Shown here: positions 15,786-44,973 of the stretch, one piece after another
Numbering within the stretch: position 1 is the stretch's first letter
Layout: each line of letters begins with the position of its first letter
Origin: Candidatus Thorarchaeota archaeon
GTDB lineage: Archaea; Asgardarchaeota; Thorarchaeia; Thorarchaeales; Thorarchaeaceae
Assembly: GCA_021498125.1 (NCBI GenBank)
Contig: JAIZWL010000011.1
Coordinates: 1 to 53,333 of the forward strand
Direction: 5' to 3'
DNA: 53,333 nucleotides
The notes under the pieces: generated by a model
Databases searched by the model: none
Seen by the model: only the letters and a program-made list of their open reading frames with translations
What the model was told of the DNA's origin: nothing
Position numbers and translations under genes: made by a program

Positions 15786-18700
15786 CTACGAGCTTGCCTT
15801 TTTCATCTGAAGTACGACGATCACTACAATTACTACTCCCAAGATTCCGGCTATTCCTACTACGATCAGTGGGGATAGTCCCTCGCTAGTAGTACCTGTG
15901 GGTGACGTGGTACCCGAAGTTCCAGTTGTCGTTGTTCCTGTGCCAGTCGTAGTCGTTGTAGTTGTCGTAGTCGTTGTAGTTGTCGTAGTCGTTGTCGATG
16001 TGTGTTCTACAACGTGGACCATGGTCGTGTAGGCTGTTGAGTGCCCCGGTTGATCATAGACCACGATTGTAAAGTTGTACGTACCGAGGCTGAGGCTCGA
16101 CAATGAAATCTCGACCGTATCCGTTGCATCGTACGAATCTGATGTGTACACTGTTCCATTCTGGTACACGACGTAGGTGTTCGGGAACACATCCGCGAGC
16201 TGCCACGAGAGGGTCTCCGACTGCCCGACCTCGATCGTCATCTCCGATACTCCTGTGACGGTGGGCGCATTGTCATCGACTTTGAAGACATACGTCTGAG
16301 ATGCTTCATTTCCTACAACGTCTACAGCATAGACGTAGAGTGTCTGCTCGCCATCGCCCGCCGGAACGGGTATGTTGTACGGACTGCTGATCGTCGTGTT
16401 TGAAGTCTGAGAACTCCAGCGATAGCTGACAGTATCAAGGTGGTCATCCGTGACGGTGACTGAGATACTTTCCGAACTTGTGATGAACGAGTGGTCTGGT
16501 GGGGTGACGAGGTTGATCACGGGAGCATCGGTGTCAATGTAGAAGACAAAGGTCTTCTCGGCCAAGTTCCCAGCAGTGTCGTTTGCTCTCACGACGAGAG
16601 TGTGTTCGCCACCAGCAGAGGGGACCGTTGTCGTGTATGGATCGGCCCAAGTCCTGAAGGCTGCACCGTCCCACGAGTACAGCACCGTATCGACATCGGA
16701 GCCGCCTATGGCCACATCAACAGTGACTGACTGAGTCGACACAGAGTTGTTCGTCGGGCTCTCCAATGTGATCGTTGGGGGAGTTGAATCTGTGTTGAAT
16801 CTGTACAATGCAGAGGCCCAGTTGTCCGCAGAATCGCGAGCATACACATTCAGCGAGTGCCAACCGTCACCAGTTATCAGTGTAAGGTCGTACGGGCTGC
16901 TAAGTGTTGAGTTGGCCCCGCCGTCCCACGAATAGAGTACTTCGTTGACACCTGTTTCTCCATCCGAGACCGATAGATCAATTGTGGTGCCGGGCTGGTT
17001 GGTTGTTTCGTTCGCCGGTGATCTTAGTGTGATTGTGGGTGCTACCGTGTCCATACCGATCTCGGACACAAAGGCATCAACACTGCCTCCAAGGGTGCTG
17101 TCATAGGGCTTCTGTGTCTGGAAGTCGGAAGACTTAGTTTCACCTGTGATGAAGAGCGTACCGTTATTCATTACAGCGATTCCACGACCCTTCTCATCAC
17201 CCGTTCCACCAAGATATGTGGACATCTTCAGGCCACCTGTACTATTGAATCTCAAGATACACGCTTCATTGTTGACAGCCGTTGTGTCAAGAGCATTATA
17301 GAACGGCCAGTCGTCATCACCCGCTGAACCGGACACGAATATATCATCAGCAGCACTAAATGCCGCATCACCACCGTATACGCCATATGCTCCACCAAAG
17401 TAGGTACTCCAGCTGAATGATGAACCGTCTGACGCAAACCGCGTGATGAAGAGATCATAGTTACCGCCATTTGAGCTCTGGTATGCATTCTTAACTGGAA
17501 AGTCGGTTGACATTGTGCTTCCAGTGACCACAATACTTCCTGCGGAATTAATACCAATACCAGTACCATACTCTACGTTGGCACCACCGAGATATGTGCA
17601 GAATCTAATGGTACCGCCACTTGTAAAGCTGGCCAGAAAGGCATCGCTTGTTCCTCCAAGGGTTGTGTCGTTGGCATTATTGACTGGAAAATTTGAGGAC
17701 CACGTTGTACCGACAACGCCGATATTTCCATTTCCATCAATCTCGACATCGTTTGCTTCATCAGAGTGAAAATAATCCGATGATAGACCATCGCCTCCAA
17801 GATAGGTTGAGAAGATAAGACCAGTTCCCGTGGAGTTGAACTTGGTGACAAAGGCGTCCAAATATGACGCCTTAGTGCCCTGATAGGCATTGACTGTTGT
17901 AATACCATTTGTAACGCCTGTAATCACGGGTTCGCCTGAATTAGTGATGGCAATACTCTTTGCACTTGTGTCATCAGTGCCAAAGTAGGTAGAGTAGACG
18001 AGTCCAGTGCCTGTGCTGTTCAACTTCACGAGGAATGCGTTGTATCCACCTGTCAGACTTGAGTCATATGAATTGGCGCACGGGAAGTTACTGGAATAGG
18101 TGACCCCGGTCACGTAGACATTACCATTGGTGTCAACGGTTATTCCGTATCCCATGTCATCACTGCTGCCGCCAATATAGGTACTCCAGATCAGTGTACC
18201 CGTACGCGGATCCATCTTTGTCACGAAGACATCATGGTTGCTGTTCCAAGATGTATCGTACGCATCGGCTGGGAAACCGTTTCCGTCGGTGTAGCCTGTG
18301 ACATAGATATATCCTGAAGAGTCTACTTCAACGTCATACCCCGAGTCCGCACTGCCTCCACCAAGATAGGAGCTAAATAGAAGCCCATAGTCCAGTTTCA
18401 CGTTAAATCTGAACGTTGCCATTGAAGAGTGGCCGAGTGTGTCATATGCGTAGACGTATAGCTCAGCCCAACCAGCAGCGAATGGAATGTGCGTCAGATA
18501 TGGTGAGAAGAATGTCTTGTTTGAAGACCACGTGGACCAGCGATAGAGTACGTAGTTCAGATGTGGCTCTGTGACATTAACATGGACTTTCACGCCCGAA
18601 TATTGAAGCGTATTATTTTCTGGAGTGATCAGACTGAGCAGAGGTGCTGTGTCATCGCACACAAAGGTGTAGACGGTGGACGCCCAATTTCCTGCTGTGT

Positions 18701-20999
18701 CATTCGCATAGACATAGAGAGTATGACTTCCGTCAGGGGACATCATGAACACATTGTACGGATCGTAAAGCGTACTGTTGCTATTACTGTCCCAATGGTA
18801 GAGTGCCGTGTCAAGTTCCACATTATCGCTCACGGACATGTTGATGACGCTTCCCGACCGGGCCACTGAACCGTTTGCAGGCGAGTTCAGCGTGATCGTT
18901 GGTGCTTGGGTATCATTGAAGATCTGTGTCACGAAGACATCCCGACTACCTCCATATGACTGATCAAAGGCATTACGAGTCGGATAGTCCGAAGATGCAG
19001 TCTGACCCAAAATAGTGATGTTACCATCATTCGTGATTGCAACGTCATATCCGTAGTCTTCACCCTCCCCACCAAGGAATGTGCTGAACTTGAGCGACTG
19101 TCCGTCCGCCGCAAATTTAGTGACTGCCACTTCGGCGACCGCTACGTCAGTTTGAATGGCATTCTTAAATGGATAGTTCGTACTGCCTGAGAAGCCCACG
19201 ACATACATGTTTCCTGAAGAATCGACAGCAACGTCTCTAAAATCATCGATGTTTGATCCTCCAACGTATGTTGCATATCCAAGCGAACCGTTGGGTAATA
19301 CCTTAGCAAGATACCCATCTCGTGATCCTCCTAAACTGGAGTCGAACGGATTAACGAGTGGAATATCTGACGACTCAGTGTAACCGACAAGGTAGGCCGT
19401 ACCTGTTGGATCCACGGTCAGTCCAAATCCAAATTCTGCGTCCGTGCCACCATAATATGATGAGTAGGAGATGCTTGAGAAATCGGCAAGGATCTTTGTG
19501 ATGAACGCCTCATCAGAACCCTGTGAAGTATCGAACGCATTCACCCGTGGGAAGTTTGAGGATTGCGTAGTACCACAAACGTAGATGTTGTTGCTGCTAT
19601 CTATTGCAATATCAAATCCCCATTCAACGCTTCCGCCGCCAAGGTACGTGGAGAACCGGAGGCCATTCCCTGTGTTATTGAATACAGTAACAAAGGCATC
19701 TTGCGATCCATTGAGTGAGCTGTACAGTTCGTTGGCGAGATCGAAATTCGCAGATTCGGTCGTACCTGTAATGTATGCATTTCCACTGCTGTCAACTACT
19801 ATCTCTCCAGCGGAGTCTTTATCATCGCCACCCAAGTAGGTGGAATAGAGCAGGGTCGAACCATCAGAACTGAGCTTGGTCACGACTATATCATAGTCGC
19901 TCTGTTTGGTTGACTGATACGCATTGACGACCGGATAGTCGTTGCTACTTGTGGATCCCACAATGTAGATGTTACCTGATCCATCGACTGCGATTCCATT
20001 CCCGTATTCATTTAACGACCCTCCCATGAATGTACTGAACACGAGATCACCGGTCAGGGTCATCTTTACTATGAATATCTCAGTACTACCACTGAAAGTA
20101 CTATTGTATGCATCCTTCAGCGGAAAATTCGAAGAATACGTCCGTCCAATCATATAGACATAGCTACCATCAACATAGACATCGCCGGGTTCCTCTTGCC
20201 CGCTTCCGCCGATAAACCCGGACATTGTTATGACCATTGGGTCGATCACTAAGGTTTCATGTTTGTCATAGTTGCCGACTTGGAAGCCATATGAGTCGCT
20301 GCTCTTCTGGACGAAGACGCCGTTAATGGTCTGGCCATTTTGCAGCATGAGTAGATCTGATTCACCATAGGCAGTGACACCGTTGGTCACCGCAGTCACC
20401 TGTGTGTTTTCAACAACGACCTGTGTCCCTATAATCACTACTTCGATCTGGTTAGGGTCGGCCCACGGATGGACAATAAACTCGCTCTTGAGACCACGTT
20501 CTGTCATGTAGTATCGCAAGTCGATTCCATCGTAGATATTGCGATAGATCACGTCATCAAATGTGGGAATGTTAGTGTATTGCAAATCGCCAATGAAGTA
20601 GTTGATAACATGGGTCTTTTTAGCGGCTCCCTCTGGTTGTACATAGTTCGCTCCACGGAATGAGACCTCTGTAGTGAAGTGCTGACCATCCGGATTGGTC
20701 ACTACGATTCGTACTCTCGAGGGGAGAAAACCCACTTGGATCCCATTAGATCCAACATAGTACTTCAAATCGCTATCCGGCGCCTGTCCGACGTTCTTAA
20801 TAAAGCCACCAAACGGTATCGTTGGAGTCCGTGCTGCTGCTGAACGATCTACTACATTATTGTTCATTGTTGGAATATTCTTCATTGCATTAACAGTAGC
20901 TCCCTCCCCAGTCGAACTGGGCACTGCTGCAGTTAATCCTATAGTTAGTGTGCTCTGTAAAAGTAATATTAAGATAAATAATAGGCCTTTATGGCTCAA
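15786..20999 (-). CDS. Giant SBBP beta-propeller/Ig-like surface protein
   Basis: About 1737 residues. A signal peptide (LSHKGLLFILILLLQ...) is followed by an N-terminal domain found in bacterial and archaeal SBBP proteins. Two long blocks of SBBP repeats follow (STYLGG, then IAVDSSGNIYVTG and SSNFP in each unit). They are separated and followed by Ig-like modules of the form LxSPxNxS...VxVxVTDxxLDTVxYxW. A final Ig-like module, a Thr-rich stalk and a terminal helix with KKASS anchor it to the membrane, facing outside. The frame is open to 21059, but a TATA-like box at 21061-21074 puts the mRNA start near 21045. The TTG at 20999, preceded by GGAGAAGG, is the better start. Probably adhesion or a surface coat. 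Confidence 0.82.
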   Translation of the reverse strand: MSHKGLLFILILLLQSTLTIGLTAAVPSSTGEGATVNAMKNIPTMNNNVVDRSAAARTPTIPFGGFIKNVGQAPDSDLKYYVGSNGIQVGFLPSRVRIVVTNPDGQHFTTEVSFRGANYVQPEGAAKKTHVINYFIGDLQYTNIPTFDDVIYRNIYDGIDLRYYMTERGLKSEFIVHPWADPNQIEVVIIGTQVVVENTQVTAVTNGVTAYGESDLLMLQNGQTINGVFVQKSSDSYGFQVGNYDKHETLVIDPMVITMSGFIGGSGQEEPGDVYVDGSYVYMIGRTYSSNFPLKDAYNSTFSGSTEIFIVKMTLTGDLVFSTFMGGSLNEYGNGIAVDGSGNIYIVGSTSSNDYPVVNAYQSTKQSDYDIVVTKLSSDGSTLLYSTYLGGDDKDSAGEIVVDSSGNAYITGTTESANFDLANELYSSLNGSQDAFVTVFNNTGNGLRFSTYLGGGSVEWGFDIAIDSSNNIYVCGTTQSSNFPRVNAFDTSQGSDEAFITKILADFSSISYSSYYGGTDAEFGFGLTVDPTGTAYLVGYTESSDIPLVNPFDSSLGGSRDGYLAKVLPNGSLGYATYVGGSNIDDFRDVAVDSSGNMYVVGFSGSTNYPFKNAIQTDVAVAEVAVTKFAADGQSLKFSTFLGGEGEDYGYDVAITNDGNITILGQTASSDYPTRNAFDQSYGGSRDVFVTQIFNDTQAPTITLNSPANGSVARSGSVINMSVSDNVELDTALYHWDSNSNSTLYDPYNVFMMSPDGSHTLYVYANDTAGNWASTVYTFVCDDTAPLLSLITPENNTLQYSGVKVHVNVTEPHLNYVLYRWSTWSSNKTFFSPYLTHIPFAAGWAELYVYAYDTLGHSSMATFRFNVKLDYGLLFSSYLGGGSADSGYDVEVDSSGYIYVTGYTDGNGFPADAYDTSWNSNHDVFVTKMDPRTGTLIWSTYIGGSSDDMGYGITVDTNGNVYVTGVTYSSNFPCANSYDSSLTGGYNAFLVKLNSTGTGLVYSTYFGTDDTSAKSIAITNSGEPVITGVTNGITTVNAYQGTKASYLDAFVTKFNSTGTGLIFSTYLGGDGLSSDYFHSDEANDVEIDGNGNIGVVGTTWSSNFPVNNANDTTLGGTSDAFLASFTSGGTIRFCTYLGGANVEYGTGIGINSAGSIVVTGSTMSTDFPVKNAYQSSNGGNYDLFITRFASDGSSFSWSTYFGGAYGVYGGDAAFSAADDIFVSGSAGDDDWPFYNALDTTAVNNEACILRFNSTGGLKMSTYLGGTGDEKGRGIAVMNNGTLFITGETKSSDFQTQKPYDSTLGGSVDAFVSEIGMDTVAPTITLRSPANETTNQPGTTIDLSVSDGETGVNEVLYSWDGGANSTLSSPYDLTLITGDGWHSLNVYARDSADNWASALYRFNTDSTPPTITLESPTNNSVSTQSVTVDVAIGGSDVDTVLYSWDGAAFRTWADPYTTTVPSAGGEHTLVVRANDTAGNLAEKTFVFYIDTDAPVINLVTPPDHSFITSSESISVTVTDDHLDTVSYRWSSQTSNTTISSPYNIPVPAGDGEQTLYVYAVDVVGNEASQTYVFKVDDNAPTVTGVSEMTIEVGQSETLSWQLADVFPNTYVVYQNGTVYTSDSYDATDTVEISLSSLSLGTYNFTIVVYDQPGHSTAYTTMVHVVEHTSTTTTTTTTTTTTTTTTTGTGTTTTGTSGTTSPTGTTSEGLSPLIVVGIAGILGVVIVVIVVLQMKKASS
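15940..16000 (-). repeat. 18-bp tandem repeat coding the Thr stalk
   Basis: The Thr-rich stalk of the SBBP protein is encoded by near-identical repeats of about 18 bases (plus-strand unit GTCGTAGTCGTTGTAGTT, nearly three copies). Such repeats change length easily by slippage and would alter the distance of the propellers from the membrane. Confidence 0.6.
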
Positions 21000-21060
21000 A
21001 GGAACACCTTCTCCTGAATCCTGACACAGGAACCTATCTTTGGGTGCGCAATGGCACAAA

Positions 21061-24870: not shown

Positions 24871-25230
24871 CACGAACACTTCCTATGTTTTATGAAAATA
24901 GTCTTTTTTCCCCATATACATACTATGGTGCTCGCTAGATAGACTGATAGAAGCAACCACATTTTCGAGATTCTGGTTTCTGTCTTTGGCAATGCCCTGA
25001 ATGAGACCTTATCCAGAGGTGCACGGCCTTTGTTGCTTTCGAGCACAAGCTTTGTTCTAGCTCCCTTGTTACGGTTTTCACGTCAGGGATTGCTCGTTGG
25101 CATTCAAGGTGCAGTAATAATTCTTTTTTAAAAGATGGGAGTTTTTCCATGAACTGATACTTTGCCACCTATCAGTAGATACATGATAATTACTTATAGC
25201 CATTTGTTTGATTTTTTAGTCGAAACTAGT

Positions 25231-28200
25231 ATGAGGGTACGTGACACTAGTGGATTCGTTTTAGGATTAATCGCCCTAATCCTGTGCATTTCTCCGGTGA
25301 TGATACAGACCGGTCTCTTTAGTGTAAACCCGGTTTCCACTGTACACGGCAATACTCCGATCGAGGACACTGTACCAACCAGCGATCCACGATACTATGA
25401 AGGCACACTTAATCCTGTTGAAGTCGAGCAGGTGGGTCACATTTCCACAATTGAGAAGTATGTTGAGACCGATGCTGGAAACGAGACCGGCCAGCTAATC
25501 TCTTTTGACACGGATAATAATTGGGTGGGTAGTCAGGCTGAGGTCGAGGTCTCCAACCTTACACGGCTCTATTCTATTAACGGTTCCTTTGATGATGGTC
25601 TAACAGGAGTCAATTACTACCCAAGCAGCTCTTCTAAGTACTATCCTCTTGGTTGGAGTGCCAGATATACACAGACTGGTCCTAAAAACACAACACAAGT
25701 TGCGTCCTATGTCGAGTCAGACGATCGTTTTGTGTCCGTAGAGAATCAGGGGTACACTGCTTCCACGACTAATCCAAATTATTATCATTATGCAGGCACA
25801 ACAATTCAGTGGAATCAAACTTTTGTAAATGTTCCCTATTCTACAAGTTTTCTCTTGAGTTTTGACTATCTCTATTTTCGAGGACCAATTTACACAGGAA
25901 CGGGCGATGCACTTACTGGAAACTGTAGCATTAATGTCTATATGAATGGTGATAAGGTCTGGAGTCAGAGTCTTCTTCAACTCTCTTCACATAATACATG
26001 GTATCATGTTGGATCTGTGCCAGTAAGTGTGCCTACTATCGGAAATATTTCAGAGGTAAGTATTGGTCTTCTGATCGATGAACAATTATTGCTGGATCCA
26101 AATAATGACTATGATGGGGATGGTATAGCTGATGGTGACCTCAATACGGGGTATATTACAGTCCATCTTGATAATGTGCGACTGGTAATGGCCGACCCTC
26201 CCTCTTTTGAAGCTGTTAATCTACAGTTCCAAGCTGGCTCTCAAGTGACACCAATTACCGGCGTTAACGGTACTGGTTCTGCGACTATTGTCAATTCTTC
26301 TTATTGGACCACTAGTCCGTTGCCAGTACAGGTGACATCTAACACATCCGTGAGTTTCCACTACATTTCTCGTCTACGAGTAATTCGCCTTGGCAACTCG
26401 ACCTACACTACCAACATTAGTGCTGAAGGCGTCGAGTTCTCGTCTGATCCACTAGTGTCAGCTTATCTGTCGTTCTATTATTATATTGGCTATACTGGTG
26501 ATTTATCGAATCGATGGTTGACCGTGCGAATTCCTACTGATTGGGGCAACGTCAGCGTGTACGACTCATTCATGACGGATATTACTTCTCTCTGTACTAT
26601 CGCTCCCGGAGAAATATGGGCTCCTGACTCTCTTCTTGAACGGCTTGGGTGGTGGTTCTTTACTGCTGAATCCCCGAACTATTTACAGTCGGTCAAGGCT
26701 CAGAAATATAATGATTCAACATCGGTTTGGAGTGACAGTTCGATCTTTAGGACCTCCAATGTATCGCGTATTACTGCGTCATTTGGTAAGACAGGTCCTC
26801 AATCTTTACTCGGTTACCCTGCGCGGGTGCAGTGGTACCTGCCAAATGGGTCTCTATGGTATGAAGAGATGAAGACTGGAACTGGTCAGGGGGTATTGAA
26901 TAGTACACCTGTCATTTTTGGGGGCATTAATACCAGTGCGGGTATCTGGTCTGTTTACATAACTTGGAACAACGGTTCAGAGATAGGCTGTGGTCGTGTA
27001 GAGTTCAGACTGATTCATAGGCTCAGATTAGAGCCTGTAACCGCATATATTGAAACAGAAGTTGGTACCGTTGTGAGTGTTGCTGTTTATGTTTATGATG
27101 ATGATCAAGGAACCTTTCTTTTAGACTCTGGACTTTCTGTGTCTGGCAATTGGACGCCAGCGAGCATCGATCTCCTTCCGGATGCGCCACACAATAGATG
27201 GGCTGGCGACTTCAATACATCCTTTGTGTCCCCCGGCAACAATACTGTCAGGATAAATGCAAGCGGTGCTTCTTATGATCCCTCTTCAACCGAAATTGTG
27301 ATTGGTGTGCTGTACACTAGAAACTCGCTCACCGCAAATGTAACATTGATTGATATGGCTCTCAATTCAACTCAGAGCATTCAATTGGAGTTCAAAGACT
27401 CCTTAGGAACTGCAATCAATGAGGCGAACATCTCGACTTCGATCATGCTCGGGTCATCCAATGGCATATCATGGGGATCTGTGGCTGACATTGGTGCTGG
27501 CAATTATCTGATTAATTTCACAGGTCATACCTCTGGAACCTACACAATCAGAATGGTTGCAAGTAAACCAAATTACGAATCGACAGATGTCACTCTTCTA
27601 ATATATGTGGACACTATTCCCACTTCTTTGGCTTCTCTCAATGGCTCTGCAGATGTGATCACTTATGGCGATCAGTATGACCTGTTTCTCCATTATACAA
27701 ATGAGAGTGGGTATGGTCTCTCAAATGCAAGTGTGAGCATTCAAGATGTGAAACCATCAACGGGTCTCCCTTATGGGCTAGTTGAAGATCTTGATGATGG
27801 TTTTTACCATATCCGGTTTAATTCGACGGAGATAGGCATCTACTCAATCGTGGTCCTTGCGAACAAGACCAATTTTCAGCCACAGTATCTCTCATTCACA
27901 CTCACGGTTACGAAAGACACAATGTTCCTCTCAGTCGCTGATCCTGCCCCCGTTCTAACTGTTGGTGAGCTTTACAATTCATGTGTGTATCTTAATGCTT
28001 CTACTGGTCAAGGTTTATCCGGGGCCGTCATCAATGGAGTTGATTTGCCTCAAGCCCTATTGAATCTCTCTATCTTTGATTGTGGAAATGGAAGTTATTT
28101 TGTTACTTTCCGGCTTAATGATACTGGCTTCTTTCATTTTGTTCTGGCTGCGGCCTATCCTAATTACGCAAATACTACTGTTGTGTTCTCGGTCTCGGTA

Positions 28201-29892
28201 GTCCCTATACAGACTACTCTGTCCTTAGTCACAGGTACTAATTTGGGAATCACCCTTGTTGGAACCGAGTATGAGATCTTATTATTCTTCGAGAGCACTG
28301 AACGATCCGAGAACGTCACGGGTGCATCTATCGATGTTCGACTGGATGAAGGCGACCCACTAAATTGGACACTTGAAGAAAGTGAAGAGTATTATGCTAT
28401 TCGTTTCACTGCACCCAGTACTGGACGACGGATTATTACCATTACGGCCTCAAAAATACACTATCAACCGGACTATATTGTCTATATTCTTGATGTCAGT
28501 CCTATTCCCACAGCACTGGAGGCTCTGGGCACGCCAGATCGTCCACTGTTCAACAGAACCAAATATTTCACGTTGAATTATCATTGTGTACTGAATAGCA
28601 GCGGCGTGGGCAGAGCGACGATCGATATTGCTGGTGATGGTCATGAGTGGTTTAACTGGACGTACTTAGGTGATGGGGTCTACAACTTTTCAGTGACCCC
28701 CACTGAACTTGGACAATATAACATCCAAATTTCGCTTACTCGTGAAGGGTTCGTGCCTCAAAAATTGACGATGTCTTTTGAAGTCGTAAAGATTCCAATT
28801 ACTATTGTCATGTCCCCAATTGTCTGGAAAGAGGGTACTCCACTCCTGATTTCTCTCCAAGTTATGGAGGCTGATTCAGGACTGCCTGTCACTGGTGCAT
28901 CAGTAAGTTGTCAGATATCTATCCCGAATTCTGCGCCTGTCAACATTGTGTTACATGAGGAAGCTCCTGGCAATTATTCGGGCTCAGTAGAGATTCCCTT
29001 TACCGGCGAGAACTCATATAGCCTAGAGATCACAGTCACGAAAGAAAACTACAAGCTTGAAGAAGGGCCGCTGCTTACAAGTATAACATTAGTTCCTGAT
29101 TACCGATCACACTTGCTTTCTCTGCTGGTGTCTGTTGGATCCATTGGTGCAATCATCTTTTCAACTGTCTTTATTTCCGCTATTGTTTATCGTATCCATA
29201 GAAAACGTCACCAGCAACGAGAGGCAATTGCTATTGATATGAAACAGCGTCTTGATGATGCTGGTAATCTAATCGGTGTCATCATTCTGCATAAATTGAG
29301 TGGACTACCATTGTATTCCCGGTTTGTCAGAAATGCATTTGATGAGTCTATGGTCGCGGCCTTCATTACTGCAATCACTCACTTCAGAGCTGAGATCGAC
29401 TCATCAACTCAAGTCGAGGGGAAGGTCTCTCCCATGTCCGATATCATTCGTATTGTCACAATGAAGAATCTTCTCTGTGCGTTTGTGACTTTAATGCCTC
29501 CCTCTCAGAATCAAGAACGCAAGTTCGAGACCTATGCTAAGATAATTGGGATCAGATACGCTTCAGATTTCGAAAACCCTCCTGTAGAAGTAATCGATAA
29601 AGAGATGACAGATATCCTAGATGAATTAGTGAACGACATTCTAGATGGAAATCTCCTAAGACCATTCAGGGTCGAAAAAGTAACTGATGGATCTCGTGAG
29701 CTGCAAATTCTACTTGAAGCATCCAATGAGTTCCCAGATGGGGTATTTAGGCTCTCTGAGATTGCCTCGTTTCTGATGACAACGGGCTTCCGAATGATTG
29801 ATACCTATCTTCTTATTCTGAAAGCATTGAACGAAAAAATAGTTGTTCCAGCTGGAAATGACTATCTGCTGGACTCGTCAGATGAGGAATAA
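25231..29892 (+). CDS. Giant secreted Ig-like protein with one TM helix and a cytoplasmic roadblock/longin-like tail
   Basis: About 1553 residues from ATG 25231; the frame is open from 25162 but the signal peptide (MRVRDTSGFVLGLIALILC) fits 25231. The extracellular part is Ser/Thr/Asn-rich with many N-glycosylation sequons. It has a jelly-roll-like N-terminal region (YFRGPIYTG, CSINVYMNGDKVW) and then at least five repeats of about 100 residues (GDQYDLFLHYTNESGYGLSNASV, ELYNSCVYLNASTGQGLSGAV, KYFTLNYHCVLNSSGVGRATI). One helix near 1292-1320 is followed by RIHRKRHQQRE and a cytoplasmic domain. GNLIGVIILHKLSGLPLYSR and ESMVAAFITAITHFRAEI there recall longin/roadblock proteins. The last 60 residues may be a winged helix. 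Domain calls are by eye. Confidence 0.7.
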   Translation: MRVRDTSGFVLGLIALILCISPVMIQTGLFSVNPVSTVHGNTPIEDTVPTSDPRYYEGTLNPVEVEQVGHISTIEKYVETDAGNETGQLISFDTDNNWVGSQAEVEVSNLTRLYSINGSFDDGLTGVNYYPSSSSKYYPLGWSARYTQTGPKNTTQVASYVESDDRFVSVENQGYTASTTNPNYYHYAGTTIQWNQTFVNVPYSTSFLLSFDYLYFRGPIYTGTGDALTGNCSINVYMNGDKVWSQSLLQLSSHNTWYHVGSVPVSVPTIGNISEVSIGLLIDEQLLLDPNNDYDGDGIADGDLNTGYITVHLDNVRLVMADPPSFEAVNLQFQAGSQVTPITGVNGTGSATIVNSSYWTTSPLPVQVTSNTSVSFHYISRLRVIRLGNSTYTTNISAEGVEFSSDPLVSAYLSFYYYIGYTGDLSNRWLTVRIPTDWGNVSVYDSFMTDITSLCTIAPGEIWAPDSLLERLGWWFFTAESPNYLQSVKAQKYNDSTSVWSDSSIFRTSNVSRITASFGKTGPQSLLGYPARVQWYLPNGSLWYEEMKTGTGQGVLNSTPVIFGGINTSAGIWSVYITWNNGSEIGCGRVEFRLIHRLRLEPVTAYIETEVGTVVSVAVYVYDDDQGTFLLDSGLSVSGNWTPASIDLLPDAPHNRWAGDFNTSFVSPGNNTVRINASGASYDPSSTEIVIGVLYTRNSLTANVTLIDMALNSTQSIQLEFKDSLGTAINEANISTSIMLGSSNGISWGSVADIGAGNYLINFTGHTSGTYTIRMVASKPNYESTDVTLLIYVDTIPTSLASLNGSADVITYGDQYDLFLHYTNESGYGLSNASVSIQDVKPSTGLPYGLVEDLDDGFYHIRFNSTEIGIYSIVVLANKTNFQPQYLSFTLTVTKDTMFLSVADPAPVLTVGELYNSCVYLNASTGQGLSGAVINGVDLPQALLNLSIFDCGNGSYFVTFRLNDTGFFHFVLAAAYPNYANTTVVFSVSVVPIQTTLSLVTGTNLGITLVGTEYEILLFFESTERSENVTGASIDVRLDEGDPLNWTLEESEEYYAIRFTAPSTGRRIITITASKIHYQPDYIVYILDVSPIPTALEALGTPDRPLFNRTKYFTLNYHCVLNSSGVGRATIDIAGDGHEWFNWTYLGDGVYNFSVTPTELGQYNIQISLTREGFVPQKLTMSFEVVKIPITIVMSPIVWKEGTPLLISLQVMEADSGLPVTGASVSCQISIPNSAPVNIVLHEEAPGNYSGSVEIPFTGENSYSLEITVTKENYKLEEGPLLTSITLVPDYRSHLLSLLVSVGSIGAIIFSTVFISAIVYRIHRKRHQQREAIAIDMKQRLDDAGNLIGVIILHKLSGLPLYSRFVRNAFDESMVAAFITAITHFRAEIDSSTQVEGKVSPMSDIIRIVTMKNLLCAFVTLMPPSQNQERKFETYAKIIGIRYASDFENPPVEVIDKEMTDILDELVNDILDGNLLRPFRVEKVTDGSRELQILLEASNEFPDGVFRLSEIASFLMTTGFRMIDTYLLILKALNEKIVVPAGNDYLLDSSDEE

Positions 29893-35179: not shown

Positions 35180-38100
35180 TCATTTACGTTGTCGGAGTTT
35201 CACAATTACTACGACTACAACAACAACCGCTGCCATGCCTCCGATCAGTACCAAAATAATCTCATTACTGAGAAATCCTGTTGGTATCGTGTTCGTTGGT
35301 ATGGTGGTTGTAGTGTTAGTTGTACTCTCTGGCACAACTGTCACAAAGACGGTGTCCTTGGCATAATTTCCATTCAGATCCCAGATGATAAGCGTATAAT
35401 TGTATACGCCCACATTCAGTCCATCCACGTTTACTACTATCGGTTCTCCATTCCATGTTCCTGAATTGATAGCGACCCCGTTTCGATAGAGCGTATAATT
35501 AGATGGATTCGAATCACTTGGGTTCCATACGATCTGATGGCCAGTCGTTCCTATCTGATAGGTTATGTCCAACGGATGGTCAATAATTGGTGGTAATGAC
35601 ACATTGACAAGGACCCATGTTGTGAAGGAGGTTGAGTGTCCAAACGAGTCTTCTGCGTAGAATGTATAATTATATGCACCCTTCGTGAGACCGTTCAAAC
35701 TGACAGTGGTCGTGTTTGATTGAGTGGTCCATGAAAATTGTGATTCGCGAACGTTGTTCACCCATAACTCTAGGAGAGAGGGATATAGACTTCCAGCCAC
35801 CCATGTTATTGTTTTACCAGTCGGATCTGTACATGCTAGATTGGTCAGACCCCAAATAAGTGGAGGTTGATCCGGAATTGAATCTCCAGCTGTGAACACG
35901 GCATCAGAGATATCTTCAGCATACATGCCACGATCGGTCGTTGTCACCTTTACTACATATGTGTCCCTGTGTTGCCATGACGTTGTATCCCATGTAAACT
36001 CATCAATCGATAGATTCGATGCAACTAGCATGAATGTCGTTCCGCCATCATTTGAGATATAGACCTCATGATTCGGACTGCAGTCTGCATTCTTTGATAC
36101 AACAGTCCAGTCGATCGTTTGACTTCCCGTCCAGTCCTCTCCGCCATTCGGAGTATTCAGTGTTACAGTGGGAGCAAAGAAATTGTTGAAGGTGACATTA
36201 TTCCACGTTCTGACATACGTTGATCCACCTTTTGTCGTGGCTGTGGCAATGATATCCCGTGTCGCATTTTGTCCGAAATTAGTAGTATCATACCATGCAG
36301 AACGGCCAGCAAATTCAACAACCATGCTTTTGCGTGTATCTACATGTAGTGTGAATGTACCTGATTGTGCTGCATAATTGTATATCCCAAAATATATTGA
36401 ACCGGATCTATCTGCAGTGATTGTGCAACTCTCCGGTCGTCTGCTCGTGGCCATCTTACTACCTAGAATGTTGTTTGCGTATGTCCATGTATCACTTACA
36501 GTGTCCGCCCACCATGCCATGACATCACAATCGTCGGAAGTGAAATCTAGGCTTAACTTCACAGGGTCGTCTTTTTGGATCCCATTGACCAGTACCCACG
36601 CAAATTGTGTCTGATCAATTGTCCCGGTGAATGGGTTATAGGACGATGAAGGTATCACCAAATCACCTGTTTTTTCAAAGTACATTCCCGTCTGGAAGCC
36701 GAGGCTCGTATGGTCGATTTTCTTCTCAGGGAAGTTTGGTACTGAAATCTCTGAAATTGTCACATTGACTATGATATGATCTCCATTCAATACGTCGTTC
36801 GTTTCGAATGGGGCTGGTGTCGTATTCCAGTTAGAGTAATACGTCTGTTCCATAGTCGGTTCTGCGATAGCACCATATGTCATTACTTTAATTGTGTAGT
36901 TAAGCGGGAGTGACAATTGCTTGTCCATATCTGTCGGATGAATTAACAGATAATACATGCCTATGGGATTAGTGGGGAGTTCGACCATCACCGCCGTTGT
37001 GCAGTTCGTGCTCGAAGCGTCACCCGTCAATTGTGTACAGTTCTCATTGAAGACTTGTACAGTCATAGCACACCCGGCATCTTCCCAAATGACTCGAACT
37101 CCCATATTCTCCGTCTCAGAATGTGGGTTGTAAATTGCATAGCTCCTATAGTCGCCTACCAAGTCTTTGCCCATAAGTCCGTACACAGGACTATCATACG
37201 GTGAGAGATCCGTGCCAGTTCCAGACACTATTGTATTTTCTTCGGTCATATCCGCCGAGAGATTCCCGACAAGACTGAAACTCCATGGTACCGTCACGGT
37301 TGTTGTGCCATCAGAAATTTCGGCATACCCTTGATAGATGCCTGTGTCATCTACGGGTGCTGTCAATTTCCATGTATACGTTGAAGATCCACTGCCGGGC
37401 AAGGCTGTGATCATCGACGTAGATTTCTTTTCCCAGAAGATCACAGTACATTGGAAAGAGTGACCTGAGTTAGACATATCATCATCAAAAGCTGGATCGT
37501 GGATTACAAGTGTTAAATCACCCTTAAGAATTGCAGAGAGGCTCGACATGTTTGTCGCGAAGGACATCATGCTCGTGCACGAAGAATTGCGCCCATCTGC
37601 CAGACGGATTAGTTCGTTGCCTTGTTGGGTCGATGCGTCCCATCTATTGGGCATGCCATCACTTGGATCATCATCAGACCAGTCATAGAGAAATGACCAT
37701 GGTGCGCCGTATTTGGAAATATCATCTTTGTTGAATGAAATTCCTATTGTGACATATGAATAAGTTGAGACCGCCGAATCATAGGTCGTTGCGCCGATTT
37801 TGTCCCTGAGATCATACCATCCATACATCTGTGCGGAACTAACTGTATCATTATATGTGAAGGTCGTGCCTGAGAACGAATACGTTTCAGCTTTGTGCCA
37901 ATAGTATGCTGAGGTCGTCCACCCCGTCGTATCTGTAATGTATGGACCAGACACATTGGTAAAGATCTTCTGAGTCACATTTGTCACCGAACCTGGAAAG
38001 ACCTGACCAAAATATAATGATCCCTCGCCAAACCCTGAAGGTAGGCTCGAATGGGCTACATCTGTATGTAGCATATCCGACGGGCCGGAACCGCTATGGC

Positions 38101-41100
38101 TCCATGCTTTATTAGCAATTCCCATCAGATTGTCAAATGAATCACTTGACTCGACAATGAATCCAACATCATTTTTGACATACTCACAAGCTGCTTGTGC
38201 ATCAACTCGACCAAAGCCTTCAGTTGCAGGATCATACCCTAATCGCTCAGATGTGCTCTGAATTATGGTCTTGACCTTATCCGGAGACCATGATAGTCCC
38301 TTGTCATTCAGGGCCTCAATGACCAAAGCTGCAACTCCTGCAACAACTGGTGCAGACTGACTTGTTCCTGAGAATAATGTGACATTGGAATAGGAACTGC
38401 CCCAATGTTGGCCTAGATACGAGGCATATACGGGTACTGGGGCATAGGCAGCCAGACCCGGAGCGACAACGTCCGGTTTAACGTATCCTAAGAACGAGGG
38501 TCCTCTGCTTGAGAACGAGGCAATGCCCTCGATATTTTGATCCGGCCCATATAGGTACTCCAAGTATTGATTACTGGTGGAGGCTCCAACTGTTAGTACT
38601 CCTGCTGAACAGCCCGGGGGACCATCGGTCATAAATCCTGAGCCTTCATTCCCCACTGAGAAGATGTGAAGTACTCCGGGATACGCTGGATCGAGATATC
38701 CTGGTGTTGATAGAATTGTCCATATTAGTGACAAATAGGACAGTTCCCCATTAGAAGCAACCTCCCATCCCCAAGAGTTTGTCACGAGGTCAGCTTGATG
38801 ATTTCCTGTATAATTGAATGTGCTAGTTGCCTCATTATAGTCAAATCCACAGATCCATAGATATGCCCCAATTTTGCTGCCTGATGTCAGGGCGCGAACC
38901 GAGAGGATCTTTGATTGATTGGCAATACCAGTCATGTAGAAGTACGAACCATTGTTGGAGTCGTAGTATTGGTGCTTCCCCCGGCTGGCAACATGAGCGG
39001 CTGTGGATGTGCCATGTGTGTCCGCGTCAAAATACAGACAGACTGCGGCACCATCTGATCGGAATCCATTGAAGACTGGCTCGTCGGTGAACCATTCATT
39101 TGCATCGAAGCACCACGAGATAGCTCCTAGACTGTAATCGTTGACGCCGTCCCCGTTCAAGTCTGCCGCCACTACAGGGTTGGAGTAGTTATATGTTGCA
39201 ACAGCGATATCATCTGTGAAGTCCCAGTCACAGAGGTCGAGGATCGGTTGTGTCTCAGCAGGATTGGTGAGGTTGACGTTCTTATAGTAAATCCCGCCAT
39301 CCCAGAACCATGACCACGCCTCAGCGCCCTCCCAATCAATAGCCAAATTCCACTCACTGGTTTTAGATGACTTGTACACGAGTGCAGGAGCAAAGGCCCT
39401 CATGTACGGAGTGGATCTCTGTTGGAAGATGAACCCCACTCGATAATCACCAAGTACCTCTGATGTGTCAGGGAGTCGTATGTCCTGCCATATGTCATCA
39501 GGCATTGTACCAACGTCTACACCCCAATAGTACGCGTAGAGCCATACAAAGCCTATCCGGCGATGATACGGCGAATTTTTGTCTCCATCACCAATCAGAT
39601 ATCTTCCAGACCCCTCATAGTTTAACATTGGATCCCAACTGGAGACGTTGAGATAGACGCCTGTTGCGTTTCGATAGGTGAGCACATTTCCGTCTGACAG
39701 CCACGCATCAGGGTCTGCCACATTAGTTGTATTTGCATGAACGAATAGGTTGAGTCCATATCCAGACGGATCATATGTACCATTGTCATAGGCCTCCGTC
39801 AGATCGGGAACGCCAAAGTCGCATCCAGTATCAATATGCCCGACTACAATCCCATCACCAGTGTATTCTGCCGCAATGCTCTCAGTTGCACCTACAACAG
39901 TACGTATTTCTGACATGTCCAATGAAAACGGCGGCACTTGCACATCCTTTGTATCAGGATTCGCGAATTCATCGACAACGGGGTTTATCATCTTGTCCGC
40001 CCGGATCGCTGTTACGCCGCGGAGGTTCATTATACTCTTGAGAGAATCCTGTGATGGCATCGATACTTTTGCTAGTTTGAATACTTTGAAGTCCATCTTC
40101 CAGGATAGGTCTGCAAATTCTTCTATCGCGTCCATATCGATCCAAGGTGCACAGTAGACCAATACGCTTGGATTCCCATGCACAAGTGAGATCGAATCGT
40201 CAACTGTTCCGCCGGAAAGCCATTTTTCTAAAAGCGGGTCTATATCAGGTCTGAAATCAGGACGTGACCAATTGCTCCAGAGTGCCTCTGATTGTTCTTG
40301 GACAATTTCTGGAAGGCTCTGATCATGTGTTATTGTTGCACTCATATGATTGAGCGCGGCCTGTGATGATTGGATATCGTCATTATTCGGTACAGACCTG
40401 AAGTAGTACGGATTTCTCGTGAGCTCTGTAAATGAGTCCACAGTGTAATCAGTGATATAAAACGGTCCTGAAGTGATCATCGGTTTTACCATTGGATTTG
40501 GATTCCATTGGTTCCATCTACTGGGCTCGAGATTCTGAAAATAGTGTTTGGGAATCACAGGCAAATCTACAAGCTTTGTGAGATGCCAATACGACTCTGT
40601 ATTAAATTCTACAACCAATATGTAATCTTGTGGGGCATACAGTGCAAAGGCATCTTGAAGACTGCTACTATAGGGATTATCTGGGGCATTACGATAATAG
40701 TTGTAAGTGAATGCAATATCTTGAGCTGTGAGGGGTACTCCATCGGTCCAAGAAGCATTTCTCACGATACTGAATGTGTAGCGTGAATGTCCTACGGGAA
40801 TAGCATGATTGTCTGCATGAGTTTCAGTGATGTAGCTGTTACAGAGCCAATTAATAATACTGCCATCCGGGCCTCTTCGTAGTAGAGGTTCATACAGCTC
40901 GCTCAGTACATTCTTAGTAGACTCTGACGTACGGATCATAAAATTAAAGCTCTCAAGGTCGAGGCGATTCCCCCACCGGAATGTACCTCCAAAGGGACCA
41001 CCTGCCTGACTATGGCGTCTGACTTTTTGGTTTGTCCACCAAGACGCTAATCCGTGAGCAATATCGTTGACGTGCCCCTCAAAAGTATCTGTTCTATATG

Positions 41101-42079
41101 CCGACACCATTTTGTTCTCATAGCAGACGATAATTGGGCTCTCATAGGCCAAAATTTTTTGCATTTCGATGGCTGCTTCATATACGTCATTATAATCTGT
41201 TGAGTAGAGTAGTTTGTCCCTCCATGAATCGTAGGATGCATTCCTGAAGTTGGGATAATTGCGGTCGGGCTCAGTAGCGTATTCAGACCAATACTCGAAT
41301 CCAAGCCAGTCCACATCAAAGTCGGTGAACGATTTACCCATGAATGCTACATCATAGTCCCCATGTGTTTGGAGTCTAGAATAATAGTCATAAAAATCAG
41401 TTGGAACAGATGTTGCATCTATGCCTAGTGCCTGTAGTGCGTCTGCTGCCCTTGTACCAACCTGAAGCGCAATGGATGATGACTGTGCACATTCTATTCG
41501 GACCGTGAAATCGGAACCGTCAGGGGCCTCTCGATAGCCATCCGAATCTATGTCGATAAAACCCGCATCTGTAAGGATCTGTTTTCCAAGATTGACATTT
41601 TTGTCGTAATAAGAGTATGATAACTGTCCCTCTGCCGAGAATGGATTGATCTGTGGGACTACACTATCAAGTGGAATTGCAGTATCATCCCAGACCTCTT
41701 TCGAAATATTTTCTTTATCCAGTGCAAACGCAAAAGCTCTACGAAATGCAGTAATATTGAGAGGATACTTTTGACAGTTGATGATCAAATAGCCATAACC
41801 ATTCCGTAAAGTCGTGGCGATTTCTATATTTGAGGAATTTGATAATTGATCCACGAATGATGGATCAACGAACTGGCCAATAATATCAATATTATTATTT
41901 TGAAGCGCAAGGACTTGGTCCGCATCTTCTCGAATGACCTTGAAAACAAGTTTGTCTATGTAAGGTCCTGAACTATCACTGGAAGTTCCTGCTGCACTGA
42001 CAGTTTGCAATGCACCTATGTTCGAGCTCACAAAAGTAACTAAGAATAAACTGAGAATGATTATAGCTGTTTTTCTCAT
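35180..42079 (-). CDS. Permuted family-5 solute-binding domain fused to a subtilisin-like surface protease
   Basis: 2299 residues with a signal peptide. Residues about 40-345 resemble the C-terminal part of OppA/DppA-type proteins (NGYGYLIINCQKYPLNITAF, RRAFAFALDKENI), and 350-560 the N-terminal part (YEPLLRRGPDGSII, WTDGVPLTAQDIAFTYNYY), so the order is reversed. A possible I9-like propeptide precedes an S8 domain with Asp750 (GHIDTGCDFG), His1022 (THGTSTAAHVA) and Ser1242 (SGTSQSAPVVAGVAAL). VTNSWGWE supplies the oxyanion Asn. The Asp-His gap of 272 residues implies a large insertion. Beta-rich domains, two Ig-like modules, a Thr stalk and a terminal helix anchor it outside the cell. All three catalytic residues are present. 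Confidence 0.82.
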   Translation of the reverse strand: MRKTAIIILSLFLVTFVSSNIGALQTVSAAGTSSDSSGPYIDKLVFKVIREDADQVLALQNNNIDIIGQFVDPSFVDQLSNSSNIEIATTLRNGYGYLIINCQKYPLNITAFRRAFAFALDKENISKEVWDDTAIPLDSVVPQINPFSAEGQLSYSYYDKNVNLGKQILTDAGFIDIDSDGYREAPDGSDFTVRIECAQSSSIALQVGTRAADALQALGIDATSVPTDFYDYYSRLQTHGDYDVAFMGKSFTDFDVDWLGFEYWSEYATEPDRNYPNFRNASYDSWRDKLLYSTDYNDVYEAAIEMQKILAYESPIIVCYENKMVSAYRTDTFEGHVNDIAHGLASWWTNQKVRRHSQAGGPFGGTFRWGNRLDLESFNFMIRTSESTKNVLSELYEPLLRRGPDGSIINWLCNSYITETHADNHAIPVGHSRYTFSIVRNASWTDGVPLTAQDIAFTYNYYRNAPDNPYSSSLQDAFALYAPQDYILVVEFNTESYWHLTKLVDLPVIPKHYFQNLEPSRWNQWNPNPMVKPMITSGPFYITDYTVDSFTELTRNPYYFRSVPNNDDIQSSQAALNHMSATITHDQSLPEIVQEQSEALWSNWSRPDFRPDIDPLLEKWLSGGTVDDSISLVHGNPSVLVYCAPWIDMDAIEEFADLSWKMDFKVFKLAKVSMPSQDSLKSIMNLRGVTAIRADKMINPVVDEFANPDTKDVQVPPFSLDMSEIRTVVGATESIAAEYTGDGIVVGHIDTGCDFGVPDLTEAYDNGTYDPSGYGLNLFVHANTTNVADPDAWLSDGNVLTYRNATGVYLNVSSWDPMLNYEGSGRYLIGDGDKNSPYHRRIGFVWLYAYYWGVDVGTMPDDIWQDIRLPDTSEVLGDYRVGFIFQQRSTPYMRAFAPALVYKSSKTSEWNLAIDWEGAEAWSWFWDGGIYYKNVNLTNPAETQPILDLCDWDFTDDIAVATYNYSNPVVAADLNGDGVNDYSLGAISWCFDANEWFTDEPVFNGFRSDGAAVCLYFDADTHGTSTAAHVASRGKHQYYDSNNGSYFYMTGIANQSKILSVRALTSGSKIGAYLWICGFDYNEATSTFNYTGNHQADLVTNSWGWEVASNGELSYLSLIWTILSTPGYLDPAYPGVLHIFSVGNEGSGFMTDGPPGCSAGVLTVGASTSNQYLEYLYGPDQNIEGIASFSSRGPSFLGYVKPDVVAPGLAAYAPVPVYASYLGQHWGSSYSNVTLFSGTSQSAPVVAGVAALVIEALNDKGLSWSPDKVKTIIQSTSERLGYDPATEGFGRVDAQAACEYVKNDVGFIVESSDSFDNLMGIANKAWSHSGSGPSDMLHTDVAHSSLPSGFGEGSLYFGQVFPGSVTNVTQKIFTNVSGPYITDTTGWTTSAYYWHKAETYSFSGTTFTYNDTVSSAQMYGWYDLRDKIGATTYDSAVSTYSYVTIGISFNKDDISKYGAPWSFLYDWSDDDPSDGMPNRWDASTQQGNELIRLADGRNSSCTSMMSFATNMSSLSAILKGDLTLVIHDPAFDDDMSNSGHSFQCTVIFWEKKSTSMITALPGSGSSTYTWKLTAPVDDTGIYQGYAEISDGTTTVTVPWSFSLVGNLSADMTEENTIVSGTGTDLSPYDSPVYGLMGKDLVGDYRSYAIYNPHSETENMGVRVIWEDAGCAMTVQVFNENCTQLTGDASSTNCTTAVMVELPTNPIGMYYLLIHPTDMDKQLSLPLNYTIKVMTYGAIAEPTMEQTYYSNWNTTPAPFETNDVLNGDHIIVNVTISEISVPNFPEKKIDHTSLGFQTGMYFEKTGDLVIPSSSYNPFTGTIDQTQFAWVLVNGIQKDDPVKLSLDFTSDDCDVMAWWADTVSDTWTYANNILGSKMATSRRPESCTITADRSGSIYFGIYNYAAQSGTFTLHVDTRKSMVVEFAGRSAWYDTTNFGQNATRDIIATATTKGGSTYVRTWNNVTFNNFFAPTVTLNTPNGGEDWTGSQTIDWTVVSKNADCSPNHEVYISNDGGTTFMLVASNLSIDEFTWDTTSWQHRDTYVVKVTTTDRGMYAEDISDAVFTAGDSIPDQPPLIWGLTNLACTDPTGKTITWVAGSLYPSLLELWVNNVRESQFSWTTQSNTTTVSLNGLTKGAYNYTFYAEDSFGHSTSFTTWVLVNVSLPPIIDHPLDITYQIGTTGHQIVWNPSDSNPSNYTLYRNGVAINSGTWNGEPIVVNVDGLNVGVYNYTLIIWDLNGNYAKDTVFVTVVPESTTNTTTTIPTNTIPTGFLSNEIILVLIGGMAAVVVVVVVIVKLRQRK

Positions 42080-43908: not shown

Positions 43909-44973
43909 ATGAATCCAATGACTATTGATGACTCCAAAAAAACCATAGAAATTGCAGAGTCTTTTATTACTGCTCTGGAGCAAAATCCCCGATTAAGGGA
44001 CAGGTTAGTCCAGATTATAGCTCCTGCGGATTATGTTAAACGTGACGAACTGGCCGAGTTATTAAAAGAAATTCGAGAGATTAGAGTGGAGTCTATGCAG
44101 CGTTTCGAGGCATCTGAACGCCGCTTTGAGGCCATGCAGAAGCAGATCGATGAACATTTGCAGGAGAGCAGAGAACATTTCGAGGCATCTGAACGCCGCT
44201 TTGAGGCCATGCAGAAGCAGATCGACGAGAACATGCGGAAGAGCGATGAGCGTTTTGAGGCCATGCAGAAGCAGATCGACGAGCATATGCACGAGAGTCG
44301 AGAACGTTTTGAGGCCATGCAGAAGCAGATCGACGAGAACATGCGGAAGAGCGATGAGCGTTTTGAGGCCATGCAGAAGCAGATCGACGAGAACATGCAC
44401 GAGAGTCGAGAACGTTTTGAGGCCATGCAGAAGCAGATCGACGAGAACATGCGGAAGAGCGATGAGCGTTTTGAGGCCATGCAGAAGCAGATCGACAAAC
44501 GTTTTGAGGCGGTGGACAAGCGTTTTGAAGAACTACATCGCGACATCGTAATACTGCAAGTATCAATGTCTGAACTTTCTGGAAAATATGGTAAGAGGGC
44601 TGAGGATGCATTGCGAAAGGTGTTGGCAGAGATACTGAAGGCTGAAGGAATCGATCCGGATAAGATCAATCACGTACAGGTGATTGATCCTGATGGAAAA
44701 ATCTTTGCGAAAGGATATACTACTGATATTGACATATACTATGAAGGCAAGCAACGATGGATTATCGAGTATAAGGCTCGGGCTGAGCGTAATGACATTA
44801 TGCATCTGGTCTTCGTAGGACGGTTGATGGAAGAAGTATACAAGTTAAAACCTGATCGACTACTTATGGTTGCATTGAACGTAAGTGGTATGGCTGAATC
44901 TTTTGCAGAAGAGATGGGTGTTGATATCATTCATGGCATCCAGTCAAATCCACCGTTGAAACCTCCCCCGTAG
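43909..44973 (+). CDS. Repetitive coiled-coil protein with PD-(D/E)XK-like C-terminal domain (DUF3782 type)
   Basis: 354 residues. A short N-terminal helical part (to about 65) is followed by seven copies of an 18-residue unit beginning RFEAMQKQIDE (about 72-196), alternating between ..NMRKSDE and ..HMHESRE forms, which predicts a long coiled coil. RFEAVDKRFEELHRDIVILQ continues the helix. The C-terminal domain (about 220-345) has TDIDIYYEGKQRWIIEYKAR, giving D...E-x-K as in PD-(D/E)XK nuclease-like DUF3782 proteins. The cellular role of that family is not established; structural coil plus nuclease fold suggests DNA handling. Repeats at DNA level are almost identical, so they expanded recently. 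Confidence 0.78.
   Translation: MNPMTIDDSKKTIEIAESFITALEQNPRLRDRLVQIIAPADYVKRDELAELLKEIREIRVESMQRFEASERRFEAMQKQIDEHLQESREHFEASERRFEAMQKQIDENMRKSDERFEAMQKQIDEHMHESRERFEAMQKQIDENMRKSDERFEAMQKQIDENMHESRERFEAMQKQIDENMRKSDERFEAMQKQIDKRFEAVDKRFEELHRDIVILQVSMSELSGKYGKRAEDALRKVLAEILKAEGIDPDKINHVQVIDPDGKIFAKGYTTDIDIYYEGKQRWIIEYKARAERNDIMHLVFVGRLMEEVYKLKPDRLLMVALNVSGMAESFAEEMGVDIIHGIQSNPPLKPPP
44122..44496 (+). repeat. 54-bp tandem repeat inside the coiled-coil gene
   Basis: The 54-base unit starting CGTTTTGAGGCCATGCAGAA recurs with few changes, in a higher-order 108-base period (N-M-R-K-S-D-E alternating with H-M-H-E-S-R-E). The first copy is 25 codons because it includes an extra REHFEASER segment. 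The repeat also produces long open frames on the other strand and in other frames, which are not genes. Confidence 0.9.

Follow-up and report, generated by a model that had tools for sequence, protein, structure and literature searches.

Family-5 (SBP_bac_5 or cluster-C) solute-binding proteins (SBPs), including OppA, DppA, AppA and TM1223, and S8 subtilases with an N-terminal propeptide, including Tk-SP, SubHal and fervidolysin, are the closest described relatives of the protein reported here. The propeptide of known subtilases is cut off during maturation. Binding proteins are circularly permuted by engineers to build sensors; the open-access literature searched contains no description of a natural permutation of OppA-type proteins, of either of the permuted forms described below, or of SBP-protease fusions, which falls short of proof that none has been published.

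The window is the whole stretch of DNA analyzed, 53,333 nt of the forward strand of contig JAIZWL010000011.1 from Candidatus Thorarchaeota archaeon (GCA_021498125.1). It contains a gene whose product is almost certainly a membrane-anchored subtilase with a circularly permuted family-5 solute-binding domain at its N-terminus (Table 1). As in the family-5 SBPs, both halves of this domain match the family profile, the sequence is colinear once rotated, and relatives are located in Dpp/Opp ABC operons. However, the C-half comes first, the free-standing relatives mostly have C-terminal transmembrane (TM) anchors, and a protease is fused. The S8 profile, the Asp, His, Asn and Ser residues and a propeptide-like module are common to this protein and the subtilases (best solved homologues: SubHal, protease 1wmd and Tk-SP), although it adds an SBP before the putative propeptide, a gap of ~270 residues between Asp and His within the S8 domain, a long beta-rich region and a TM anchor. 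A large Asp-His insert is also present in pyrolysin/TPPII-type enzymes, with TPPII matched over the C-terminal part only.

Table 1. Coordinates of the fusion gene and its parts in the window.
Feature	Coordinates	Strand	Evidence
Whole gene, 2299 aa (permuted SBP5, propeptide-like module, S8 subtilase, beta-rich region, TM anchor)	35180..42079	-	ORF, Pfam
Signal peptide, residues 1-30	41990..42079	-	Sequence; hydropathy test
SBP_bac_5 C-half (second half in ordinary SBPs), residues 37-354	41018..41971	-	PF00496 profile 145-357; local HMM
Joint of ancestral C and N termini, residues 355-362	40994..41017	-	Local HMM
SBP_bac_5 N-half (first half in ordinary SBPs), residues 363-560	40400..40993	-	PF00496 profile 17-152; local HMM
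Variable linker and start of pro-region, residues 561-635	40175..40399	-	Alignment, conserved-column comparison
Propeptide-like beta-alpha-beta-beta-alpha-beta module, residues 636-694	39998..40174	-	Predicted secondary structure; alignment
Peptidase S8 catalytic domain, residues 741-1288	38216..39859	-	PF00082 E 8.7e-33; alignment
Catalytic Asp750	39830..39832	-	Invariant in 16/16 S8 sequences
Catalytic His1022	39014..39016	-	Invariant in 16/16 S8 sequences
Oxyanion-hole Asn1144	38648..38650	-	Kept in 15/16 S8 sequences
Catalytic Ser1240	38360..38362	-	GTS motif, invariant in 16/16 S8 sequences
Beta-rich/Ig-like region, residues ~1300-2273	35261..38180	-	Pfam; weak DUF3244 at 1643-1714
C-terminal TM anchor, residues 2274-2293, basic tail KLRQRK	35201..35260	-	Sequence

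Half order of the solute-binding domain

The Pfam SBP_bac_5 profile (PF00496) matches the protein in two stretches (E = 1.6e-50; 172.7 bits against a cut-off of 32.4), with residues 38–260 corresponding to profile positions 145–357. A genome profile search gives the same arrangement, with coordinates 41300–41968 matching positions 145–357 and coordinates 40370–40786, downstream in the gene, matching positions 17–152. The canonical order of N-half then C-half is absent from this domain and is reversed, as the first-pass annotation had proposed from landmarks in the protein; these are present (AFRRAFAFALDKENI at ~111–125, YEPLLRRG at 396–403 and WTDGVPLTAQDI at 444–455), and its expectation that the early residues belong to the C-terminal side of the profile is borne out. 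The N-half is assigned to SBP_bac_5 by sequence profiles, and because the half order is reversed the domain is classed as a permuted variant and not as an ordinary family member. The profile match is strong and four paralogues in the genome repeat the order, which argues against chance. The ORF is intact and its stop-to-stop frame (2310 aa) extends just 11 codons beyond it on the upstream side, so no in-frame N-half was missed there; an ordinary SBP with a lost upstream N-half is therefore ruled out.

The SBP domain was rotated in silico to place residues 358–566 before residues 38–357. In the native order, solved SBPs match either as two separate stretches or over one half, whereas in the rotated order the alignment is a single colinear one and most homologues score higher. 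Rotation raises the scores from 63.4 to 74.7 bits for AppA, 77.9 to 82.2 for TM1223 and 38.5 to 45.6 for DppA, and those of the Opp4A and NikA models from 110.7 to 127.2 and from 52.1 to 68.6 bits, respectively; a few matches (4pfu and the Vibrio chitin-binder series) are slightly lowered. With an alignment of 94 permuted relatives as input, AlphaFold predicts residues 34–566 as a single compact domain (mean pLDDT 95.9, pTM 0.92). Foldseek, which keeps sequence order, aligns 282–350 of 533 columns (~60%) with SBP5 structures (TM 0.39–0.52), and such a partial match is expected where half of the fold is out of order.

The confident compact model, the colinear alignment after rotation and the common order throughout the family indicate, as far as sequence and predicted structure can, that the domain is genuinely circularly permuted and does not consist of two fragments of separate copies; the latter outcome had been named in the first-pass annotation and does not fit the single predicted domain. 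That the domain is a degenerate remnant or an assembly chimera, with two partial SBP domains of adjacent copies joined by a deletion, is extremely improbable. Tandem permuted SBP genes, present in this genome (contig C7) and elsewhere, would make unequal recombination easy, but the half order is identical in ~90 distinct proteins and in several families, the predicted fold is compact, and the fusions retain the conserved SBP columns and are kept in six genomes without stops. The occurrence of the fusion in six genomes rules out an assembly chimera, and the colinear rotated alignment with the single-domain model rules out two unrelated partial domains.

Permuted solute-binding proteins and their gene context

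The 3.11 Mb genome contains two SBP5 genes of normal order, both in Dpp operons, and five of reversed order: the window gene and four that are free-standing (a tandem pair on C7 and one each on C1 and C9). Homologues with the same order in other archaea, for which the first-pass annotation had suggested a search, number ~90 in Thorarchaeota and Hermodarchaeota. In a scan of named genomes most hits were Thorarchaeota, with a few entries named Lokiarchaeota or 'archaeon' and two Hermodarchaeota; the scan patterns derive from the Thorarchaeota C-half, such that distant permuted forms may be missed. Local HMMs place the C-half first in all of these Asgard records where both halves are present, and the non-Asgard matches found with both halves have the N-half first. 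The permuted SBP is thus a stable, inherited natural form, of which Asgard archaea have many copies.

In a crude hydropathy test, 91 of the 92 complete permuted SBP proteins have a hydrophobic N-terminus and 84 have a TM-like C-terminus. The permuted SBP gene lies with DppF, DppD, DppC and DppB genes in seven loci (L040, L041, L043, L047, L048, L054 and L093), similar operons are present at L190 (Hermodarchaea) and L191 (another Asgard family, f18), and a DppC-like gene adjoins one permuted paralogue in L014. From this context and the C-terminal anchors, the free-standing permuted SBP is probably a working ABC transport receptor. Other permuted SBPs are carried on Ig/PKD-like stalks without a protease (L055 8004–11780; L056 7968–12017; L120–L124), which fits a receptor on a stalk, and in L117 a stalked permuted SBP is directly upstream of a protease fusion on the same strand. 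Seven consecutive permuted SBP genes are present on one Thorarchaeota contig (AMARA_8; L084 520–14223, + strand).

The DppC-like permeases of the Thorarchaeota operons have 254–272 residues between the first TM segment and the core, compared to 70–107 in most non-Asgard DppC proteins. The DppC proteins of the two normal operons in the genome analyzed here have 163–209 residues at this position, with a different, TM-rich sequence. The full insert profile is found in Thorarchaeota-family genomes only, among 34 tested; the large DppC proteins of the Hermodarchaea and f18 operons are 505 and 737 aa long. The insert begins APxWMxVFDPxGV (genes in L014 4100–5704, + strand; L038–L048; L054; L093), and there are often two insert-bearing DppC genes per permuted-SBP operon.

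A second order is seen in other Asgard families in a scan with the permuted profile, in which the last third of the domain is followed by the N-half and then the first part of the C-half (C2-N-C1). Segment HMMs confirm it in L143 (1261–3015, + strand), L147 (910–2829, - strand) and L154 (826–2655, - strand), and several tandem genes of L172 and L176 have it. In comparison with AppA, query residues 227–542 align with 51–345 and 23–165 with 360–490, the latter piece being weak on its own. Like the form in the fusion gene this is a natural circular permutation of SBP5, and its Asgard copies are C-terminally anchored, but the cut lies in the loop after the AGF/AGY helix and not between the N- and C-halves. 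The same C2-N-C1 order is present on plasmids of Nitratireductor sp. OM-1 (L205 3848–5446, + strand; within a Dpp-type operon) and Haladaptatus (L206 3842–5692, + strand). A search with the Nitratireductor protein finds ~50 more records from plasmids, chiefly haloarchaeal and alphaproteobacterial, each aligning as one colinear piece that covers at least 75% of the query. Natural SBP5 permutation therefore extends beyond the Asgard archaea. Pfam PF00496 alone misses this second form because the moved part lies mostly beyond the model, and many of the plasmid copies bear only the label 'ABC transporter substrate-binding protein'. Permuted SBPs are hidden by order-dependent annotation; they provide a natural setting in which to test the effects of permutation and anchor position on ABC import.

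Chains with several SBP5 domains are also present, with four normal-order stretches in one protein of L165 (2706–10970, + strand) and two in L164 (3–9431, - strand), tandem arrangements of a kind that could give rise to permutations. A receptor-like protein of another Asgard family (L166 4098–9731, + strand; 1877 aa) combines a normal-order SBP5 with a beta-helix/NosD region and a C-terminal TIR_2 domain (E = 2.9e-11).

The protease and the origin of the fusion

The first-pass annotation had the protein continue into an S8 protease and a membrane anchor, and both are present; the Peptidase_S8 match (PF00082) scores 114.3 bits against a cut-off of 21.8. It had also named a triad of Asp750, His1022 and Ser1242, of which the Asp and His stand and the serine is instead Ser1240 of the GTS motif. 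The catalytic residues are intact: in an alignment of 16 S8 relatives the triad is invariant and the oxyanion Asn1144 is kept in 15. The model of the S8 part is weak (mean pLDDT 63.9; Foldseek TMq about 0.2), with local pLDDT mostly 70–90 in the beta-alpha-beta-beta-alpha-beta module. There is no Pfam propeptide match in the protein, and the module is a putative propeptide by its predicted secondary structure and its place before the catalytic domain, from which it is separated by a variable segment of low model confidence (residues ~697–737).

Single matches across the fusion junction are found in 6/47 genomes of the family (G000, G003, G009, G224, G013 and G004). The five fusions placed in a tree form one clade (SH-aLRT 95), whose sister group is L119, where 2/3 proteins join the same SBP to the beta domains of this protease family without the S8 domain. 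Many family genomes, including the one analyzed here (C1:805626; L126 5396–10255), also encode unfused S8 paralogues of ~1600 residues that start at the pro-region. The Thorarchaeota examples resemble the fusion from the pro-region to the beta-rich region (~42–48% identity among best hits) but lack the SBP, with the signal peptide running straight into the pro-region. Residues 561–635 of the fusion occupy the position of the T-rich linker and TM anchor of free-standing SBPs.

The fusion appears to have arisen once and to have replaced the SBP's own anchor. In the simplest history there was a single fusion, in which a permuted SBP minus its anchor was joined to a pre-existing S8 protease at its pro-region; alternatively, the L119 branch may have lost S8, or an SBP may first have been fused to the beta domains without S8. 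As permuted SBPs are mostly free-standing, anchored and often operonic, the fusion derives from a permuted receptor that already existed. Of 95 conserved SBP columns the fused domains keep 88–97% (unfused median 95%). A neighborhood comparison found no shared flanking genes around the fusions.

Readings of the fused domain

The anatomy is firm, and the function read from it is conditional. The best explanation as a whole, which we put at about even likelihood, is that a permuted receptor domain was fused to a protease for surface capture and cleavage feeding ABC import. An SBP of the permuted, anchored Thorarchaeota/Hermodarchaeota family appears to have lost its anchor and joined the S8 pro-region; placed outermost on the anchored protein, it would capture oligopeptides or peptide-bearing material and, if it stays attached, hold substrate or products near the protease. 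The local supply would then rise for separate importers with permuted SBPs, which may take over and import the fragments. That capture and cutting by an attached domain feed ABC uptake in this manner is slightly less probable than even. No Dpp-type ABC genes were found beside the fusion within the window, in agreement with the first-pass annotation, and this counts against capture and import. The fusion suggests how Asgard archaea may couple surface protein breakdown to uptake.

The first-pass annotation had put forward both a surface machine that binds and cuts peptides and a binding domain that regulates the protease. The SBP is N-terminal to the propeptide-like module, and maturation as in ordinary subtilases would detach it from the protease and its anchor unless it remained bound; capture by an attached domain is for this reason kept apart from two other mechanisms. 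In one, rather unlikely but the stronger of the two, the SBP and propeptide would together hold the protease inactive or aid its folding, and closure on a ligand would alter propeptide release such that activation tracks ligand supply. The order of signal peptide, SBP, propeptide-like module and S8 domain is consistent with this, as are residues ~697–737, whose variability and low model confidence would suit a processing site, and the unfused paralogues, which share the pro-region without the SBP. However, the SBP is connected to the pro-region by a variable, apparently flexible linker, which weakens mechanical coupling, and no precedent was found in the open-access literature searched. In the other, which we consider improbable, autoprocessing would release the SBP-propeptide from the anchored protease and the two would act separately, with the fusion serving only co-expression and co-secretion. 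The position of the SBP before the propeptide-like module would allow this, but the free SBP would be anchorless, in contrast to the TM-like C-terminus of most permuted SBPs, and would be lost to the surroundings of a single-membrane cell; archaea have a single membrane.

A wider picture is, as a whole, rather unlikely. In it, SBP5 would have been naturally permuted at least twice, at two cut points, and the permuted forms would serve functional ABC importers, which in Thorarchaeota include DppC-like permeases with an extracytoplasmic domain of ~260 residues; one permuted form would have become the ligand-responsive front end of a membrane-anchored protease.

The ligand assumed in the preferred reading, capture and cleavage feeding import, is a peptide. 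The ligands of the nearest homologues with solved structures are mannosides, chito-oligosaccharides or a nonapeptide, and that of the permuted domain need not be a peptide. It could be a sugar, a glycoprotein glycan or a metal chelate, with the SBP steering the protease to glycosylated surfaces or polymers like a carbohydrate-binding module. By profile and fold the best solved homologues include, besides AppA, TM1223/TM1226 (mannosides) and the Vibrio chito-oligosaccharide binders. Nevertheless, this is quite improbable: the closest NCBIfam model is the oligopeptide SBP Opp4A, although the match is far below its cut-off, and all five fusions keep Asp255 and Asp257, which lie in a stretch that we take to line the DppA/OppA peptide site.

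Three other genes of the window encode noteworthy products. Two are large surface-type proteins, an SBBP beta-propeller/DUF7948 protein of 1757 aa (15786–21059, - strand) and an Ig/filamin-like protein of 1576 aa (25162–29892, + strand). The third (43909–44973, + strand) has a globular C-terminal part preceded by near-perfect RFEAMQKQIDE(N/H)M repeats, which probably form a coiled coil.
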